From assembly GCA_004297775.1 (NCBI GenBank), contig SCUE01000033.1, positions 29,085-93,084 of the forward strand: a DNA stretch of 64,000 nt, read 5' to 3'. The translations under genes were made by a program, and so were the position numbers. This document shows positions 30,706 through 61,112 of the stretch, piece after piece; the first letter of the stretch is position 1; every line of letters starts with the position of its first letter. The notes below the pieces were generated by a model. It ran no database searches and had not been told where the DNA came from. It saw nothing but the letters and a program-made list of their open reading frames with translations. The stretch comes from Chloroflexota bacterium (GTDB taxonomy: Bacteria > Chloroflexota > UBA6077 > FW602-bin22).

Positions 30706-32404
30706 GTTGACGAGAGGTCGCGGCGACGACGCTCTGGTGAGACAGCGTGCGCGCTTCGTCCCATTCGTCTGTCTCGTCGTGTTGATGGGAGCCGCGATTG
30801 CGATCGGTAGCGACGAGAGTCGAGTCATCCGACTGCGTCATACGCTCGTCGCGGCCTATTCGCTGCTCTTGCCACAGCCGACCGGCCTCGACGATCTCGC
30901 GCCGGTTCGCCGAATGGATGGCAATCCGATCGGGGTCAACGTGTTCCTGGAGCAAGAGGTCGAGGAATGGAAGATTCGCCGGAGTCTTCAGTTGATCCAA
31001 AGCGCGGGATTCGGCTGGATACGGCAGCAGATGCTGTGGGCAGAAATCGAACCCGATGCGCCGGGCCGCTTCGTTGACCGTGCGACCGGTGGGAGTTCCT
31101 GGCAGAAGTACGATCGCATCGTCCGGCTCGCGCGAGAGCACGGACTGCGAGTCCTGTTCCGAATCGACACGTCCCCGGCCTGGACGCATGCGAGTTCGTC
31201 GAAGCTCGAATCGCCGCCTGACGACGTGGAGCAGTTTGGGCGCTTCGTCGGCCTCGTCGCGGATCGGTACCGCGGCCAGATCGAGTACGTTCAGATCTGG
31301 AACGAACCGAATCTACCGTTTGAATGGGGAGATCGCGCGCCGAACGCGGCGGCCTATACGCGAATGTTAGAAGCCGCGCGGCTCCACGCTCGACGGGCGA
31401 ACATCGATATCAAGATTGTCAGTGCCGCTCTGGCGCCGACAACCGAGTTCAGCGAGAAGGGCCGCAACGATCTTCTCTACCTACAGGAGATGTACGACGC
31501 CGGTGCTCGCCACGCGTTCGATGTACTCGGCGCGAACGCGTATGGTTTGCGATCGGGGCCGGATGATCGCCGACTCGCCGTCGACCGCGACGTGAATTTC
31601 TCACGGCCAGTCCTGACGCGACAGGTGATGGTGCGAAATGGCGATTCCAGCAAGCCGATCTGGGCGGCCGAGGTTGGCTGGAGCGCGCTCCCAGAGGATT
31701 GGCCGTCGAAGAGTCTGTGGGGTCGCGTCGATCGCGCGACTCAGGCTTCTTACACCGCCCGCGCGATCGAGCGTGCGCGCAGCGAATGGCCGTGGCTAGA
31801 TGGCGCGTTCATCTGGCATTTCCGGATCGTCGCGCCGGAAGGGAGACAACTTCAGCAGTACTACTTCAACATGGTTGACGACGCGTTTGAGCCGTTGCCG
31901 GTGTACGAGGCCGTCCAACGCGTTTTGACCTCGCCGCGTATCGCCGGACGCGGCGCGCGCTCGCAGGATGATGCGGCCGTCTGGTACGATGATTACTGGA
32001 GTGCGACGAACGATGGACGAGCCGAAGGCGGCTCGTACCGTCGTGCAACAGAGCCGGGCGCCACGGCGCGCCTCCGGTTTCGCGGAAGTGATCTCGCGAT
32101 CCAGGTTGGTGGGATTCCTGGTCGCGGTCGGATTTCCTGGCTTGTCGACGGCGGAGTCGCGCGCGGCGAATGGATCAGTGCGAGCGATCGGGAACGGTTC
32201 TCGGCGCCTCTGTCGGTCGCGACTGGACTAGCCGACGGGGTTCACGTCCTCGACGTGGTGGCACTCGAACCGGACACGCGCCTCGACGGATTCGTCGTCG
32301 ATCAGGCCCTCGGGTGGCCCGGGAACGAAGCCTCGACAGCACTTCTCATCGGAGGGATCGCCGTCATTCTGGTGAGCGTCGGTGTCGGGCGCCGAGCCGG
32401 CTAG
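30695..32404 (+). CDS. Clan GH-A glycoside hydrolase-like protein, membrane-anchored
   Basis: TIM-barrel hallmarks VQIWNEPNLPFEWG (acid/base NE) and PIWAAEVGWSALP (candidate nucleophile E); N- and C-terminal TM segments. Confidence 0.78.
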   Translation: MKRELTRGRGDDALVRQRARFVPFVCLVVLMGAAIAIGSDESRVIRLRHTLVAAYSLLLPQPTGLDDLAPVRRMDGNPIGVNVFLEQEVEEWKIRRSLQLIQSAGFGWIRQQMLWAEIEPDAPGRFVDRATGGSSWQKYDRIVRLAREHGLRVLFRIDTSPAWTHASSSKLESPPDDVEQFGRFVGLVADRYRGQIEYVQIWNEPNLPFEWGDRAPNAAAYTRMLEAARLHARRANIDIKIVSAALAPTTEFSEKGRNDLLYLQEMYDAGARHAFDVLGANAYGLRSGPDDRRLAVDRDVNFSRPVLTRQVMVRNGDSSKPIWAAEVGWSALPEDWPSKSLWGRVDRATQASYTARAIERARSEWPWLDGAFIWHFRIVAPEGRQLQQYYFNMVDDAFEPLPVYEAVQRVLTSPRIAGRGARSQDDAAVWYDDYWSATNDGRAEGGSYRRATEPGATARLRFRGSDLAIQVGGIPGRGRISWLVDGGVARGEWISASDRERFSAPLSVATGLADGVHVLDVVALEPDTRLDGFVVDQALGWPGNEASTALLIGGIAVILVSVGVGRRAG

Positions 32405-34691
32405 GCCGACCTTCGACGTGGCTCGCGGCACACTTCTGGCCGCGATCGCCGTCGCGGCGGCCGCGCGCCTGATCGGACTCGATGCCCAGAGCCTGTGGTA
32501 CGACGAGGGGACGACCGCCGCACTCGCGACTCGCTCGATCCCGGAGATCATCCGTGCCGCCGCGGCCGACATCCATCCGCCGCTGTACTACGTTCTCGTC
32601 TCCCTGTGGTCGGCCGTCTCCGGAACGTCGGAATACGCGCTTCGTCTGCCGTCCGCCTTCTTCGGCGTCGTGACCGTGGCCGGATCGGCCTGGCTAGCGC
32701 GGAAGGCACAATCCGAAACCGGTGGCATCGCGGCGGCGATCCTGGTCGGGCTATCGCCGTTGACGATCTGGTACGGACAGGAAGCGCGCATGTACGCGCT
32801 GGCCGCGATGCTCGGAGTGCTGTCCGCGACCGCGCTGACTCGCGCCATTGATGGCGGAAGTCGCTCTGGGTCGGCCTGGTTCGCGATGCTCAGCGTGTTC
32901 AACCTATACGCCAGCTACGTCGCGGCTGTTCTACCGGTCGCGCAGGGACTGGGCGCAATCGCGGCTCGGTCGCGATCCGGGTCGGTCCGGACAGTCGTCG
33001 GTGTGGTCGTCTCGGGATCCGCGGTTGCCGCGGCGTTCGCACCGTGGTTGTTCGTCGCCGGACGGCAGCTTTCCGAGTGGCCCGCGCAGTCGGAACCGAT
33101 TGGTCTGGGTGCCTTCTCCGCGCGAGTATCCGGATTGTTCGTCTCCGGACCGGCGTTCGGGCAGGCGCCCGCGCTGCTCGTACTGGCGGTGGTTGCAATC
33201 GCGACGATCGCCGGTGCGCGCCTGGTGGCGGGACGCTCCGTGGTTGGACTCGTCGTCGTGTTTGGCTGCGTCGGGATACCAGCCGCGCTGTTCGTCGCGT
33301 CGCTTACGCGACCCTTCTTCCACGCGAAGTTCGTATCGCTTGCGGCGCCGTTCTTCGATATTGCGCTCGCGGTGGGGATCGTCGCGCCGATGACCTTCGG
33401 ACGCGGACGAGTGCGATCGGCACTCGGCGCGGCATGCATCATCGTGGCGGTTTTCCTCGGCGTATGGAGGTACAGTTTTGTCGCAGTCGCGGCGCGGGAT
33501 CCCACGCTGGCGCGCGATGACTACCGCGGCCTGGTGCATTGGATCGGCACGCGATCGGTACCGGGCGACGCGGTCGTCTTGAATGCGCCCGGACAGGCCG
33601 AGATCTTCGGCTACTACTATCGCGGCGATTTGCCCGTGTATCCGCTGCCTCAGACGCGTCCACCCGATCGCGCCGAGACCGAGAGCGCACTGACTGAGAT
33701 AGCCCGTCGCCATGGACGCGTTTGGCTGGTCTCGTGGGCGAGCGCCGAGAGCGATCCGGCCGCCATCGTCGAACGGTGGCTCGATCGCGGTATGTTCAAG
33801 GCGACGAGCGATTGGTTCGGTGGCGTGCGACTCTCTGGATATCTGAATCCGGATTTCATCGCGACGCCGAAACGCACGATAGATACGGCCACGTCATTCG
33901 ATGGCGTCGGCGTTCTCGAACGAATCGAGGTTGCGGATGTTGGCGTCAAGCCTGGCGATGTCCTGCCGTTGACGCTCACTTGGGTCGCCCAAGGTTCAAC
34001 ATCAATCGCATTGAAGACGTTCGTACAACTGATCGACGCTGATGACTACCTGTGGGGACAACGTGACACCGAACCAGGTTCCGACGCGCGTTCAACGACG
34101 ATCTGGTCCGATGGCGAGTCGATCGTCGACCGCGTCGGCGTTCCCGTCGTCGCGGGAACACCTCCGGGCACATACGACCTGATCGTCGGCCTCTACGATC
34201 CGGTAAATGGACGCCGGGTCCGTACGACCAGCGGAATCGACCACGTCCGGATCGGCCGTGTCGTGATCCTGCCGTACGTCGGCGGACCCATCGGCACGCC
34301 GCGCCGGGCAATCGGTCGCGACATCGGCTCTCTACGATTGGTCGGCGTCGATCTTCATCCTCTCGGGAACGATCAAGCCGAACCACGCGTGAAGGCAGGG
34401 CAGACTCTGTTGTTGGCAATGCACTGGCTCGCGCGTGCGCCGGGCACGTCGGTCGTCTCCTGGCGCGTCTCGGCGCGTCGCGCGGAAGACCGTGAGGTGA
34501 AGCAGTGGGACATAGAGTTCGACCGATACCCGACGGTGAAGTGGCTGCCCGGCGAAGCGGTCCGCGTTCCAAAGAAGCTCGCGACTGACGGACTGCTGTC
34601 GGGTATTTATCGACTCACATTGACGGCCCGTGATTCGTCCGGCGACGTCGTCGCGACGGTCGACGATATTGGCGAGGTCGCGATTGACTGA
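32382..34691 (+). CDS. GT39-family membrane glycosyltransferase with beta-rich C-terminal extension
   Basis: RLIGLDAQSLWYDEGTTAALATRSIPEIIRAAAADIHPPLYYVLVSLW; ISPLTIWYGQEARMYAL-type motif; multi-TM. Confidence 0.85.
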   Translation: MSGAEPARPTFDVARGTLLAAIAVAAAARLIGLDAQSLWYDEGTTAALATRSIPEIIRAAAADIHPPLYYVLVSLWSAVSGTSEYALRLPSAFFGVVTVAGSAWLARKAQSETGGIAAAILVGLSPLTIWYGQEARMYALAAMLGVLSATALTRAIDGGSRSGSAWFAMLSVFNLYASYVAAVLPVAQGLGAIAARSRSGSVRTVVGVVVSGSAVAAAFAPWLFVAGRQLSEWPAQSEPIGLGAFSARVSGLFVSGPAFGQAPALLVLAVVAIATIAGARLVAGRSVVGLVVVFGCVGIPAALFVASLTRPFFHAKFVSLAAPFFDIALAVGIVAPMTFGRGRVRSALGAACIIVAVFLGVWRYSFVAVAARDPTLARDDYRGLVHWIGTRSVPGDAVVLNAPGQAEIFGYYYRGDLPVYPLPQTRPPDRAETESALTEIARRHGRVWLVSWASAESDPAAIVERWLDRGMFKATSDWFGGVRLSGYLNPDFIATPKRTIDTATSFDGVGVLERIEVADVGVKPGDVLPLTLTWVAQGSTSIALKTFVQLIDADDYLWGQRDTEPGSDARSTTIWSDGESIVDRVGVPVVAGTPPGTYDLIVGLYDPVNGRRVRTTSGIDHVRIGRVVILPYVGGPIGTPRRAIGRDIGSLRLVGVDLHPLGNDQAEPRVKAGQTLLLAMHWLARAPGTSVVSWRVSARRAEDREVKQWDIEFDRYPTVKWLPGEAVRVPKKLATDGLLSGIYRLTLTARDSSGDVVATVDDIGEVAID

Positions 34692-35664
34692 CACGCGTCC
34701 GATCATTGTTTCGGTCATCTGCCCGGTCTTGAACGAGGGCGCGAGCATCGAGGCTCTCATCGACTCTCTGCTCGATCAGTCGCGGCCCCCAGACGAGATC
34801 GTGATCGTCGACGGCGGGTCGAGCGACGACACCGTCGCCCGCGTCCAGCGCTACGCGGCGGCGACTCGGTCGATGCATCTCGTGATCGCGCCAGGCACGA
34901 ACATTGCCGCGGCTCGGAATGTCGCGGTCGGCGCGGCGCGAGGCACCGTGATTGCGGCAACGGATGCTGGATGCCGAGTCGATCGGCGATGGCTCGAGTT
35001 TCTGACTGATCCCTTCCGCGGAAGTGACTCGGTCGATGTGGTCGGGGGCGCATTTCGCTCGGATCCGCGAAACGCGTTCGAGCAATCGCTTGGCGCGACG
35101 ACATTACCGCGGCCGGACGAAGTCCGGGGAGATGACTTCCTGCCGTCGAGTCGTTCGATCGCATTCCGGAGGGAATGCTGGGAGGCTGTCGGGGGATATC
35201 CGGAATGGCTCGAGCACTCGGAGGATGTCGTCTTCGATCTCGCGCTGAAGCGGGCCGGCTATCGATTCGCATTCGAGCCGCGCGCCATCGTGCACTTTCG
35301 TCCGCGTTCGACGCCGAGGTCCTTCTTTCGACAATACTTTCTCTATGCCCGTGGCGACGGCAAGGCCGGGCTTTGGCCGGCCCGGCACGCGGCCCGCTAC
35401 GCCGCGTACGCGGTTGGCGCCATCATCGTGATCGCCGGATTGCGCGCGCATCGACTTTGGGCCGCCGGCGCGATCGCGGGCGCGCTATACGTCGCGCGAC
35501 CGTACGCTCGTCTTCTGGCCGAGGCTCGTCAGGACGGGCGTCCACCGTCGCCGATTGCGCTTGCCCTCGTTCCAGCCTTGCGCTTGATCGGTGACATCGC
35601 GAAGATGGCGGGATACCCCACCGGAGTGGCCTGGCGGTTGTCACGGAGACGAGCGCGCAATTGA
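34684..35664 (+). CDS. Glycosyltransferase family 2
   Basis: PIIVSVICPVLNEGASIEALIDSLLDQSRPPDEIVIVDGGSSDDT; TTG at 34684 overlaps the upstream gene. Confidence 0.9.
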   Translation: MTDTRPIIVSVICPVLNEGASIEALIDSLLDQSRPPDEIVIVDGGSSDDTVARVQRYAAATRSMHLVIAPGTNIAAARNVAVGAARGTVIAATDAGCRVDRRWLEFLTDPFRGSDSVDVVGGAFRSDPRNAFEQSLGATTLPRPDEVRGDDFLPSSRSIAFRRECWEAVGGYPEWLEHSEDVVFDLALKRAGYRFAFEPRAIVHFRPRSTPRSFFRQYFLYARGDGKAGLWPARHAARYAAYAVGAIIVIAGLRAHRLWAAGAIAGALYVARPYARLLAEARQDGRPPSPIALALVPALRLIGDIAKMAGYPTGVAWRLSRRRARN

Positions 35665-57467: not shown

Positions 57468-58307
57468 CTAGACGGCGGCCCCGACCGGAACGGTGTCGGT
57501 CGGCTGGTACGCCGGTAACCCGCAGAAGGCGTCGTAGTCGATGAGCTCAGTGATCGTCGGCGAGTCGCCACACATCGGGCACATCGGATCGCGCCGAATC
57601 TTGACCTCGGAGAACTCCATCGCCATCGCGTCGAAGATGAGGAGCCGACCGATCAATGGATCGCCCTCGCCGAGGATCAACTTCAGGACTTCGACCGCTT
57701 GAATCGAGCCGACGATGCCCGGGAGGACACCGAAGACGCCGGCTTCAGCACAGTTGGGCACCGCGCCGGCTGGCGGTGGCGACGGGAACAAGCAGCGATA
57801 GCACGGTCCGTCCTTCGGCTTGAAGACCGTGACCTGACCGTCGAACTGGAAGATCGAGCCATGCACGACCGTCTTGTCGAGCATCACCGCCGCGTCATTG
57901 GTCAAGTAGCGTGTCTGAAAGTTGTCCGTACCGTCGACGATGATGTCGAAGTCACGAAAAACGTCGAAGACGTTGTCGGAATACAGTCGCTGCTGAAACG
58001 GCACAACCTTCACGTCCGGATTGATCGACGCAATCGTGCGCGCCGCCGATTCGACCTTTGGCAAACCGACAGTGTCGACGCGATGGAGGATCTGGCGCTG
58101 CAGATTTGACAGGTCGACCGTGTCGAAGTCCACGATCCCGAGCGTGCCGACCCCGGCCGCGGCGAGGTACAGCGCCGCCGGTGAACCCAATCCTCCCGCG
58201 CCAAGCAGGAGAACGCGGGCGTTCATCAGCTTCTTCTGGCCCATCGCGCCAACCTGCGGCAGCAATATGTGCCGGCTGTATCGGCGAATCTGCTCTTCGG
58301 TAAACAT
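57468..58307 (-). CDS. moeB: ThiF/MoeB/HesA-family E1-like adenylyltransferase, no rhodanese domain
   Basis: RYSRHILLPQVGAMGQKKLMNARVLLLGAGGLGSPAALYLAAAGVG; DGTDNFQTRYLTND; zinc Cys pairs CYRC and CPMC; ends at 279 aa. Confidence 0.92.
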   Translation of the reverse strand: MFTEEQIRRYSRHILLPQVGAMGQKKLMNARVLLLGAGGLGSPAALYLAAAGVGTLGIVDFDTVDLSNLQRQILHRVDTVGLPKVESAARTIASINPDVKVVPFQQRLYSDNVFDVFRDFDIIVDGTDNFQTRYLTNDAAVMLDKTVVHGSIFQFDGQVTVFKPKDGPCYRCLFPSPPPAGAVPNCAEAGVFGVLPGIVGSIQAVEVLKLILGEGDPLIGRLLIFDAMAMEFSEVKIRRDPMCPMCGDSPTITELIDYDAFCGLPAYQPTDTVPVGAAV

Positions 58308-58390
58308 GCCCTTCTACTCCTCCGTAATGACACACACGCTTCGTGTTTGCTTGCAAACCGTGCTCGGGTGCGACGGCGTGGTCGTCGCCA

Positions 58391-59074
58391 TCACCGCACC
58401 TCCACCGGCACCTCAGAAATGACGCTGTCGACGATGCGAAATGCGCGCGCGACCGGCGCGGCGCGATCGCTCAGCGACACGATCAGATAGATCGAATCCG
58501 GGTAGTACGCCAGCCGCACATCGGTTGGCGACGGATACGCCTCCGTGTGCGTGTGGGAGTGGTAGATGGCGATCAGATCCTCGCCCTGCTGGTCGATGTC
58601 GTCGAACACGCGAATCTGTTCGCGTGGATCCATCACATAGAGGACCGGGCTCGCCTCGGTGTTCGTCATGCGATGGATGCGCTTCGCGACGAGGCCGGAT
58701 CCGGAGAGAAGGCCGCAGCACTCGTTCGGGTACTCGGCGTCCGCGTGCGCGACCATGTCATTGAGGTGGATGCGCTCGATGACGAGGCTGTCCGATCCAC
58801 CGGCCAGCATTGGTACGAACGCGACTTCATCGTTGTTGGTGAGCGCGGTATGCTTGCCCGCCATGGCGCGCGCTTCCTCTCCGTTGACGTAGACATTGAC
58901 ATAATTCTTGAAGTCGTCGTCGGCCCAGATCTCGGCTTTCATACCCGGGTGCAGCGCGTCGAGCGTATCGATGAGGTCGAGCAATTGGGCGCCCTCAGCG
59001 AGCGTGACCGCAACGTGCGTCGTGCCGGACGTCAAGCGTCGGTACGGTGTCGGGATGTAGACGTTTACAGTCAT
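58391..59074 (-). CDS. Fusion: N-terminal MoaD/ThiS/CysO-like ubiquitin-like carrier + C-terminal JAMM/MPN+ (Mec-like) metalloprotease
   Basis: Ubiquitin-like part ends NDEVAFVPMLAGG; JAMM part ECCGLL...HSHTHTEAYPSPTD (HxHx7SxxD); GG codons at 58796-58801. Confidence 0.92.
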   Translation of the reverse strand: MTVNVYIPTPYRRLTSGTTHVAVTLAEGAQLLDLIDTLDALHPGMKAEIWADDDFKNYVNVYVNGEEARAMAGKHTALTNNDEVAFVPMLAGGSDSLVIERIHLNDMVAHADAEYPNECCGLLSGSGLVAKRIHRMTNTEASPVLYVMDPREQIRVFDDIDQQGEDLIAIYHSHTHTEAYPSPTDVRLAYYPDSIYLIVSLSDRAAPVARAFRIVDSVISEVPVEVR

Positions 59075-60000
59075 GTGATCGTCCTGAAGTTCTGGGCCAT
59101 GCTCAGGTACCGCTCTCCGGTATCACACAGGAGTGTGACAACTGTACTCCCCGGGGGCATTGACTCGGCGATGCGACGGGACGCCCAGACGTTGGCGCCC
59201 GACGAAATTCCGACGAGAAGACCGTTCTCCTTGGTCAGGCGCCGCGCGGTCTCATAGGCATCTTCGTCGGTCACGGTGATGATGTCGTCGATGATCGAGC
59301 GATTCAGAATGCCGGGTATGAATCCGGCGCCAATGCCATGGATGCGGTGAATACCTGGCCGTCCGCCGGAGAGCACCGGGGCCCGCGCCGGTTCGACCGC
59401 GACGATGCGCGTGTCCGGCCATCGCGCCTTCAGGATCTCGCCGACGCCGGTGATCGTCCCGCCGGTGCCGACACCGGCGACGAACGCGTCCACTCGGAGT
59501 CCGCGCGAACTGACCGCATCGACAATCTCAGGGCCCGTCGTGCGCCGATGAGCCTCCGGATTGGCCGGATTCGTGAACTGCTGCGGCATGAAGTAGCCGT
59601 TCTCGCGCGCGAGACGCTCGGCCGCAAACACCGCCCCGGACATGCCTTCGATTGCCGGCGTCAACACGAGATCCGCGCCAAAGAGCGTCAAGAGCGCGCG
59701 TCGTTCCTGGTTCATGTCATCCGGCATCGTCAGGACGAGCCGGTAACCGCGCACCGCGCTGACGAGTGCGAGGCCGAGCCCGGTGTTGCCGCTCGTCGGC
59801 TCGACGAGAGTATCTCCGAGCCGGATCTGGCCGGCGTCCTCGGCCGCCGCGATCATAGAGAGCGCGATGCGATCCTTTACGGACCCGCCGGGGTTGGCGG
59901 ATTCCAGTTTCGCCCAGATCCCGGTCCGGCCAACCCGCGGTTGGTCGACGCACACAAGCGGGGTATTGCCGATCAAGGCGACAGCGTTGTCACGAATCAT
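59071..60000 (-). CDS. cysM: O-phosphoserine/O-acetylserine sulfhydrylase-like cysteine synthase (CysM-like)
   Basis: ALIGNTPLVCVDQ; GGSVKDRIALSMI (PLP-Lys); EPTSGNTGLGLALVSAVRGY; GTGGTITGVGEIL. ATG at 60000; 4-nt overlap with the fusion gene. Confidence 0.92.
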   Translation of the reverse strand: MIRDNAVALIGNTPLVCVDQPRVGRTGIWAKLESANPGGSVKDRIALSMIAAAEDAGQIRLGDTLVEPTSGNTGLGLALVSAVRGYRLVLTMPDDMNQERRALLTLFGADLVLTPAIEGMSGAVFAAERLARENGYFMPQQFTNPANPEAHRRTTGPEIVDAVSSRGLRVDAFVAGVGTGGTITGVGEILKARWPDTRIVAVEPARAPVLSGGRPGIHRIHGIGAGFIPGILNRSIIDDIITVTDEDAYETARRLTKENGLLVGISSGANVWASRRIAESMPPGSTVVTLLCDTGERYLSMAQNFRTIT

Positions 60001-60023
60001 GACTGAACCGATCGTATCAATTA

Positions 60024-61112
60024 ATGGGTGAATTGGCGAAAGGCGCCGCCGACATTCTGCGCGCCCGGATCGCCGAACGCGGACCGATTTCGTTCTCGGA
60101 ATTTGTGGAGATTGCACTCTATGACCCGGAATGGGGCTATTACAGCCGCGTCGCGGTCGGGCGCGACTTCGTGACGTCGCCGCGAACCTCGCCGGCGTTT
60201 GGCCACCTGCTCGGTCGCTTTGTCGCCGACGCATGGCACGCGCTCGATCGACCGAACCCGTTTTTCGTCGCCGAATTCGCGGCTGGTGACGGGACGCTTG
60301 GCGCCGACATCCTTGCCTGGTTGTCGGCGCGCGAACCCGGCTGCGCGGCGGCCACCCGGTACCTGGCCGTCGACCGCCAGGCTGTGAGTGACGCGAGCGG
60401 ACCGCTATTTCGTGTCCGCGGAGATGCCGCGCATCCCCCCACTAACCCATTCGATGGCGTCGTACTGTCGAACGAGCTGTTCGATGCCCTTCCGTTTGAC
60501 CGCATTGTCAGCACCGAACTGGGTTTGCGCCAGACGATGGTCGATTGTCTGGGGCGCGATCTGGTGTCACGGGTCGGACCGGCCGTGACCGACGCAATCC
60601 TGCGGCATTTCAACGCCCTCGCCATCAGGCCGTCGATCGGTCAGTTACTCGATGTTTCGGTGGTGGCGCCACAGGTCTACCGGGCATTGGCGCGATCGCT
60701 TCGGCGTGGCTTCATTGTCACGATTGATTACGGCGCCGAGGCGACCGATCTCTATGGAAGTCGGCACTTCGCGGGAACGGCGCGCGGATACTCTCGTCAC
60801 GCCGCGGTCGACGATCTCCTGGTCCGGCCGGGCGAACAGGACCTCACGTCGCACGTGGATTTCACGACCCTTCGCCGGGTGGGCGAGGAGGCTGGCGCGC
60901 AAACCGTCTGGTCTGGTGCGCAGGCTGATTTTCTGCGCGCCCTCGATCTGGCCAAATGGATCGAGCGACTTGATCCGCGCCACCTGAGTCACGTCGACTA
61001 TCACAATGCACGCTTCGGCGCGCTCGAACTCGTGAATCCATCCGGCACAGGGCGATTCCGCGTGCTCGTCCAGTCGCGCGGCGCGCCGGGGCGACTCGAC
61101 CGGCTGGTATAG
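60024..61112 (+). CDS. SAM-dependent methyltransferase, MidA/NDUFAF7-like
   Basis: GPISFSEFVEIALYDPEWGYYSR; GRDFVTSPRTSPAFGHLLGRF; VVLSNELFDALPFDRI. Confidence 0.9.
   Translation: MGELAKGAADILRARIAERGPISFSEFVEIALYDPEWGYYSRVAVGRDFVTSPRTSPAFGHLLGRFVADAWHALDRPNPFFVAEFAAGDGTLGADILAWLSAREPGCAAATRYLAVDRQAVSDASGPLFRVRGDAAHPPTNPFDGVVLSNELFDALPFDRIVSTELGLRQTMVDCLGRDLVSRVGPAVTDAILRHFNALAIRPSIGQLLDVSVVAPQVYRALARSLRRGFIVTIDYGAEATDLYGSRHFAGTARGYSRHAAVDDLLVRPGEQDLTSHVDFTTLRRVGEEAGAQTVWSGAQADFLRALDLAKWIERLDPRHLSHVDYHNARFGALELVNPSGTGRFRVLVQSRGAPGRLDRLV

Follow-up and report, generated by a model that had tools for sequence, protein, structure and literature searches.

How could a ubiquitin-like sulfur carrier reach a working C terminus when the gene that encodes it runs on, through the diglycine, into a metalloprotease? 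The question is posed by an open reading frame in a 64,000-nucleotide stretch of a Chloroflexota genome (the window, by which we mean the whole stretch that was analysed), whose product joins a CysO/MoaD-type carrier to a Mec-type JAMM protease. The comparison system is the CysM-CysO-Mec cysteine pathway of Mycobacterium tuberculosis (PMC3227635).

Domains and predicted structure of the fusion

The reading frame lies exactly where it was first placed, in a prediction that gave no strand; the gene is on the minus strand (Table 1), and the plus-strand translation of the same interval is also an open frame, with a sequence unrelated to the fusion. As originally predicted, the N-terminal ~93 residues, ending AFVPMLAGG, constitute a MoaD/CysO-like carrier: Pfam ThiS matches residues 6–93 (41.7 bits; cut-off 22.5), and the fold matches described below agree. 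The chain then runs directly, in one frame without a stop, into a Mec/MPN+ domain, with Pfam Prok-JAB matching residues 103–214 (83.8 bits; cut-off 25). The zinc motif, expected to be intact, is complete from E118 through H172-S-H174-x7-S182-xx-D185; H172, S173, H174, P181, S182, and D185 are invariant across the 58 aligned homologues, as is the glutamate. The fusion thus combines the E...HxH-x7-S-xx-D motif and MPN fold of the JAMM/MPN+ proteins with the β-grasp fold ending in GG of the ThiS/MoaD/CysO family, the GG being internal, at residues 92–93, and encoded by the codons to which it had been assigned. As encoded, the carrier has no free C-terminal glycine; 134 further residues follow the GG, and the carrier is joined through this intact internal GG to a pathway partner, an arrangement of the MoaX kind.

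Table 1. Features of the fusion gene and its operon, in window coordinates
Feature	Position	Strand	Basis or detail
cysK-type cysteine synthase, upstream gene of the operon	59071..60000	minus	TIGR01139, PDB cysteine synthases
CysO/MoaD-type carrier + Mec-type JAMM fusion gene	58391..59074	minus	227 aa, ATG start
Ubiquitin-like (β-grasp) sulfur-carrier domain, aa 1–93	58796..59074	minus	Pfam ThiS; PDB 4n6e and 3dwg by sequence and fold; AlphaFold2
Gly92-Gly93 codons, predicted cleavage between Gly93 and Ser94	58796..58801	minus	GG in all five fusions
Linker Ser94–Ser96, differs between fusions	58787..58795	minus	Alignment with L002
Mec-type JAMM/MPN+ metalloprotease domain, aa 97–227	58394..58786	minus	Pfam Prok-JAB; Foldseek PfJAMM1
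Catalytic glutamate E118 (PNECCG)	58721..58723	minus	Invariant in 58 homologues
Zinc motif H172-S-H174-THTEAYP-S182-PT-D185	58520..58561	minus	Alignment of 58 homologues
MoeB/ThiF-type E1 adenylyltransferase, 279 aa	57468..58307	minus	Pfam ThiF 286 bits; NF004281 MoeB over cut-off

AlphaFold2 models the fusion as two well-folded domains (mean pLDDT 93, with the carrier mostly >90). The sole segment with a pLDDT <50 comprises residues 91–93 (Ala-Gly-Gly), and in the model the flexible hinge sits exactly at the GG; the pTM of 0.66 is consistent with free relative motion of the two modeled domains. The last carrier strand spans residues 83–88 and the first JAMM strand residues 97–99, leaving ~3 residues between the GG and that strand. 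In a Foldseek search with this model, CysO structures give TM scores of 0.85–0.90 (0.90 for 4n6e against the carrier of the fusion) and PfJAMM1 (JAMM1) gives 0.91–0.95, all target-normalised. Model and matches alike confirm the β-grasp fold of the N-terminal part, on which the original prediction had been made to depend. By sequence, the closest solved structures are 2kks, an uncharacterised JAB-fold protein from Desulfitobacterium, and 4n6e, the ThiS/MoaD-family CysO of Amycolatopsis, with Mycobacterium CysO (3dwg) ranking further down. A fusion from a second clade, described below, gives the same picture in AlphaFold2, its low-confidence segment (residues 89–95) again spanning the GG.

Operon, relatives, and the sequence around the junction

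The carrier, the JAMM, a cysteine synthase, and an E1 are encoded together in an operon at 57468–60000 on the minus strand. The synthase, originally taken for a CysM, belongs to the CysK type, scoring 406.9 bits against TIGR01139 (cut-off 350.95) and falling below the cut-off of TIGR01138. The stop codon of this upstream cysK overlaps the ATG of the fusion by 4 bp (ATGA), which suggests translational coupling. The E1 that was expected to be co-encoded is of the MoeB/ThiF type and begins 83 bp downstream of the fusion on the same strand, with the ribosome-binding site GGAGGAG. A Pfam search of its 279 residues returns ThiF as the sole domain and no rhodanese domain, and the search of the window genome yielded no other strong MoeB-type E1 (two further matches score <80 bits versus 286). 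Fusions of the second clade have their E1 on a different contig rather than beside them. At the other end of the operon (60000–60024), cysK lies back to back with a plus-strand ORF whose start is at 60024; the ~23 bp separating the two start codons leave little room for separate promoters. In two relatives, a gene for an Rrf2-family regulator lies between mec or the fusion and moeB (L050:849-1244, by Pfam, and a similar ORF at L008:1926-2306); it is absent from the window.

The search for homologues with the same fused order, proposed along with the original prediction, found them in four further genomes, which brings the total to five, every one of them from the Chloroflexota: the window genome, G005, G006, G284, and G503. 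All 29 genomes of the window's class give a match, and in three the whole protein lies in one frame, namely the window genome, G005 from the same family (62% identity), and G006 from the same order (52%). The G005 MAG (L002/L049), assembled independently, likewise reads through the junction and keeps the gene order cysK-fusion-moeB. A phylum-wide search added G284 (L035/L073), and a genome scan covering 85,000 species contributed, among the best 80 loci that were kept, L080, which gives the same reading as G503. In a tree of carrier plus JAMM, the five fusions fall in two groups, a single group being rejected by the AU test (p-AU 1e-96). The second group is nested within relatives having separate genes, both in this tree and in that of the JAMM alone, and the first-clade trio is only tentatively one strict branch (support 79/63). 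The proposal that the fusion is lineage-specific was therefore not borne out, and its presence in two separate clades suggests that the arrangement is selectable.

Unfused relatives have cysO and mec as neighboring or overlapping genes; in G003 and other members of the order, cysK comes first and then cysO and mec, separate but arranged as in the fusion. A single genus holds both fused forms (G284 and G503) and overlapping separate genes in different frames (G109 and G179), which makes junction errors unlikely. A candidate third fusion, in G056 (match 13–224, no stop), was rejected, as only the JAMM domain is recognised and the preceding sequence is not a carrier. Matches in viral contigs were weak throughout and involved the JAMM part almost exclusively. 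Five records titled Bifidobacterium breve (L060, L065, L070, L118, and L122) have cysO/mec loci that resemble those of Thermoleophilia; L060 clusters with Actinomycetota MAGs in the tree, and the five are probably mislabelled MAGs.

The GG is retained in all five fusions and is followed by Ser, Ser, Ala, Ala, and Ala. Between the window and G005 (L002) proteins, residues 83–93 are identical at 11 of 11 positions and residues 94–100 at 2 of 7; the linker of G006 is longer than that of the window fusion. To judge from these alignments, a GG that is kept, with constraint lost right after it, is the pattern expected of a cleavage site that would make a functional C terminus.

Residues beyond the GG are also encoded in most unfused carriers of relatives (73 of 92, counting distinct carriers whose locus has a same-strand JAMM gene): 63 have 1–3 extra residues, 8 have 4–10, and 2 have more, and the remaining 19 end exactly at the GG. 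MoaD and ThiS from this class, inspected as controls, also have short tails or are fused to a downstream partner, which is MoaE for MoaD (by Pfam) and resembles ThiG, by eye, for ThiS. Because MoaD and ThiS share them, the tails are not special to mec operons, common as they are beside mec, and a JAMM-linked origin for them was rejected. A carrier C terminus blocked beyond the GG, as originally described, is thus real in the fusion but no peculiarity of it. If these proteins work as thiocarboxylate carriers, such widespread tails and fusions would call for general GG-directed trimming. An internal translation start that yields a separate JAMM is unlikely: no ATG, GTG, or TTG occurs between Gly93 and the first JAMM strand, and ATG89 lies before the GG, with no Shine-Dalgarno-like sequence seen upstream by eye.

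Proposed cleavage after the GG and rival explanations

The best-supported reading is that the fusion is a precursor, in which the GG of a CysO-like carrier would be capped by a Mec-like JAMM protease. The Gly93-Ser94 peptide bond would be hydrolysed by the JAMM activity of the fusion protein, within one molecule or, more probably, between two, to give carrier and protease, the same reaction type as the Gly-Cys hydrolysis of CysO-Cys by Mec. The neighboring MoeB-type E1 would adenylate the freed carrier, which would become the thiocarboxylate; from this the adjacent CysK-type synthase would make carrier-cysteine, with O-acetylserine or O-phosphoserine as the possible acceptor, and the liberated JAMM would hydrolyse the product to cysteine and carrier. 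We regard this model as a whole, from the predicted cut after the GG to the action of both parts in a CysO/Mec-like cysteine pathway, as probable. It is favored because the GG is kept in both clades and the sequence after it drifts, because both domains are intact with the modeled hinge at the GG in both clades, because cysK and an E1 are co-encoded and unfused cysO and mec are adjacent in the same order, and because there are precedents for JAMM enzymes acting after a GG. With a spacing of ~3 residues, cleavage in cis may be sterically hard, and the short linker favors cleavage between molecules in the window protein; going by the model, cutting in trans is at least as plausible as in cis. 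If cut as predicted, the fusion would represent a natural case of a ubiquitin-like sulfur carrier made in one precursor with its protease, apparently new to sulfur metabolism in the texts covered, with a logic comparable to that of ubiquitin and SUMO precursors and, in addition, its own deubiquitinase-type enzyme.

By profile search, the fusion appears to hold the only Mec-type JAMM of the five fused genomes: no other Prok-JAB match was found in G006, G284, or G503, and there is one other in the window genome and two weak ones in G005. The other JAB of the window genome adjoins an E1-E2 protein and a SAVED-endonuclease effector, a type II CBASS (PADLOC scores of 627 bits for E1-E2, 200 bits for JAB, and 265 bits for the endonuclease effector). 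This system, with its Cap3-like JAB and Cap2-like E2-E1 protein, is located at about 31750–35580 of G000:C9 (L308:1751-5581), and a similar ThiF/JAB pair is found on C29 of the sister genome G005.

Further carriers interrupted after a GG are present in the same genomes. MoaD-MoaE fusions with an internal GG occur in all five (identified by Pfam for the window and G503 copies and read from sequence for the others), and a carrier fused through ISGG to a complete family III CoA-transferase is encoded on the minus strand in G503 and G284 (L300:313-1719 and L302:313-1719; ThiS 38–45 bits, CoA_transf_3 >440 bits). The MoaD-MoaE junctions read SGG/QSR, SGG/STR, and SGG/AAR at L259 (G000:C31:124044 region) and L298/L299, loci of the window genome and of second-clade genomes, and many relatives have the like. 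G503 also has a carrier fused through ISGG to DUF4395 with a weak thioredoxin-like match (L305:775-1764, minus), and the window genome has a MoaD-like carrier with an internal GGG followed by a DUF1952 domain (L206:1216-1776, minus). Across 177 genomes of the second clade's class, a MoaD-MoaE fusion and a strong Prok-JAB are found together in 112, the fusion only in 16, the JAB only in 13, and neither in 36 (Fisher p 1e-14, with genomes treated as independent, phylogeny and completeness ignored, and ~18 of the 128 fusion matches partial). Most genomes of genus g60, in the class of G284, have neither, unlike the rest of the class.

As the only Mec-type JAMM detected in genomes with other internal-GG carrier fusions, the fusion is a candidate general maturase. 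Rather more speculatively, it may be a self-liberating master maturase that would free its own carrier and JAMM, the latter then cutting the other GG-blocked carriers of the genome; the substrates that this possible, though doubtful, extension names are MoaD-MoaE and the tailed carriers and, in the second clade, the carrier-CoA transferase and carrier-DUF4395 fusions. Were it true, one E1 and one JAMM would switch on the molybdopterin, cysteine, and other sulfur pathways together. A sole detected Mec-type JAMM among several GG-blocked carrier fusions also offers a compact test of bacterial carrier maturation, a step whose protease was not assigned for Mycobacterium MoaX in PMC4326299.

The case of MoaX, together with the short tails and carrier-partner fusions common in the class, leaves room for a general tail-trimming activity, such that the chain would be cut after the GG by another cellular protease and the JAMM would act on carrier-Cys only. 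Against this, it is JAMM enzymes that have been published as cutting linear carrier fusions after a GG, the fusion itself contains a JAMM with intact residues, and MoaD-MoaE fusions and strong Prok-JABs co-occur in the 177 genomes (kinship ignored), all of which makes an outside protease unlikely. It is rather improbable that the domains never separate, with the tethered carrier positioning or regulating the JAMM as a scaffold or by auto-inhibition and other carriers performing the sulfur or conjugation chemistry. Besides the fusion, the window genome encodes about ten ThiS-family carriers, and the fused form has proved sufficiently stable to persist in two clades, but a mere tether would not need the GG that is retained amid drifting flanks, and the occurrence of fused and overlapping-split forms within one genus indicates that the two are apparently interchangeable.

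A role of the freed carrier as a sampylation-like protein modifier, with the JAMM as deconjugase and cysteine synthesis secondary, is suggested by the nearest NCBIfam matches, SAMP1 and a haloarchaeal desampylase, by the resemblance of the E1 to UbaA, and by the ability of SAMPs to serve in both roles (PMC4443979). The SAMP and desampylase matches nonetheless all score below the NCBIfam cut-offs (SAMP1, 51.2 versus 60 bits; desampylase, 80.1 versus 130), cysK is co-encoded with the fusion, the operon contains no E2-like gene, and PADLOC returns no match to the fusion, which sets it apart from E1-E2-JAB conjugation systems (CBASS Cap2/Cap3 and similar); we judge such a role to be distinctly improbable. 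As for an assembly or sequencing artefact that joined two genes, the source is a draft MAG with 7% contamination and the genes are split in relatives, but the same open junction recurs in separately assembled genomes whose proteins are 62% and 52% identical, and again in the distant clade, and an artefact is very improbable indeed.

Relation to known systems

The locus brings together in one cluster the components known from the M. tuberculosis CysM-CysO-Mec pathway: a CysO-like GG carrier, a Mec-like JAMM, a cysteine synthase, and an E1. Carrier and JAMM form one chain in place of separate CysO and Mec proteins. With a synthase of the CysK type and an E1 devoid of the MoeZ rhodanese domain, the locus is not a copy of the Mycobacterium pathway; the original interpretation is thus partly supported, its domain reading being right and its precursor model the best-supported one.

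Mycobacterial MoaX is cut between Gly82 and Ser83 (PMC4326299), and the Deinococcus MoaD-MoaE fusion DR2607 needs DRJAMM (DR0402) for activation (PMC8832034). In both, as here, a carrier is fused via an internal GG to a downstream partner, and the mycobacterial cut falls between Gly and Ser as predicted for the window protein; there, however, the partner is MoaE and the protease is separate, whereas here the partner is the protease. HvJAMM1 cuts linear SAMP1-MoaE exactly after the GG, thereby activating it (PMC4443979). That system likewise pairs a JAMM with a linear Ubl fusion bearing a GG junction (the cut being predicted here), but the fusion is engineered, the protease acts in trans, and the system is archaeal. 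The cleavage chemistry is thus already known from published JAMM enzymes that act after the GG of linear MoaD-MoaE and SAMP1-MoaE fusions.

In the HcyS/HcyD pair of Wolinella and the QbsE/QbsD pair of thioquinolobactin biosynthesis, the JAMM reportedly trims residues after the GG of the sulfur carrier, and HcyD is said to release the amino-acid product as well; these pairs differ from the fusion in having short tails and separate proteins.

The operon type, with ThiS/MoaD-like, JAB, E1, and cysteine synthase genes, appears in a 2006 survey that names Chloroflexus as one of the organisms having it (PMC1779556, row 4c), and the text of that survey proposes that JABs could cut off fused Ubl moieties and reports one phage tail TAPI-JAB fusion (row 5). 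No sulfur-carrier-Mec chain appears in the running text of that survey or in a phrase search of mostly open-access literature. The present locus resembles both the phage TAPI-JAB protein and the ThiS/MoaD-JAB-cysteine synthase operons of the surveyed text in placing a Ubl beside or fused to a JAB, and the sulfur-metabolism operons described there consist of separate genes, unlike the single-chain fusion. It is this single-chain carrier-protease arrangement that is apparently new, in combination with a cleavage chemistry and an operon type that are already known.
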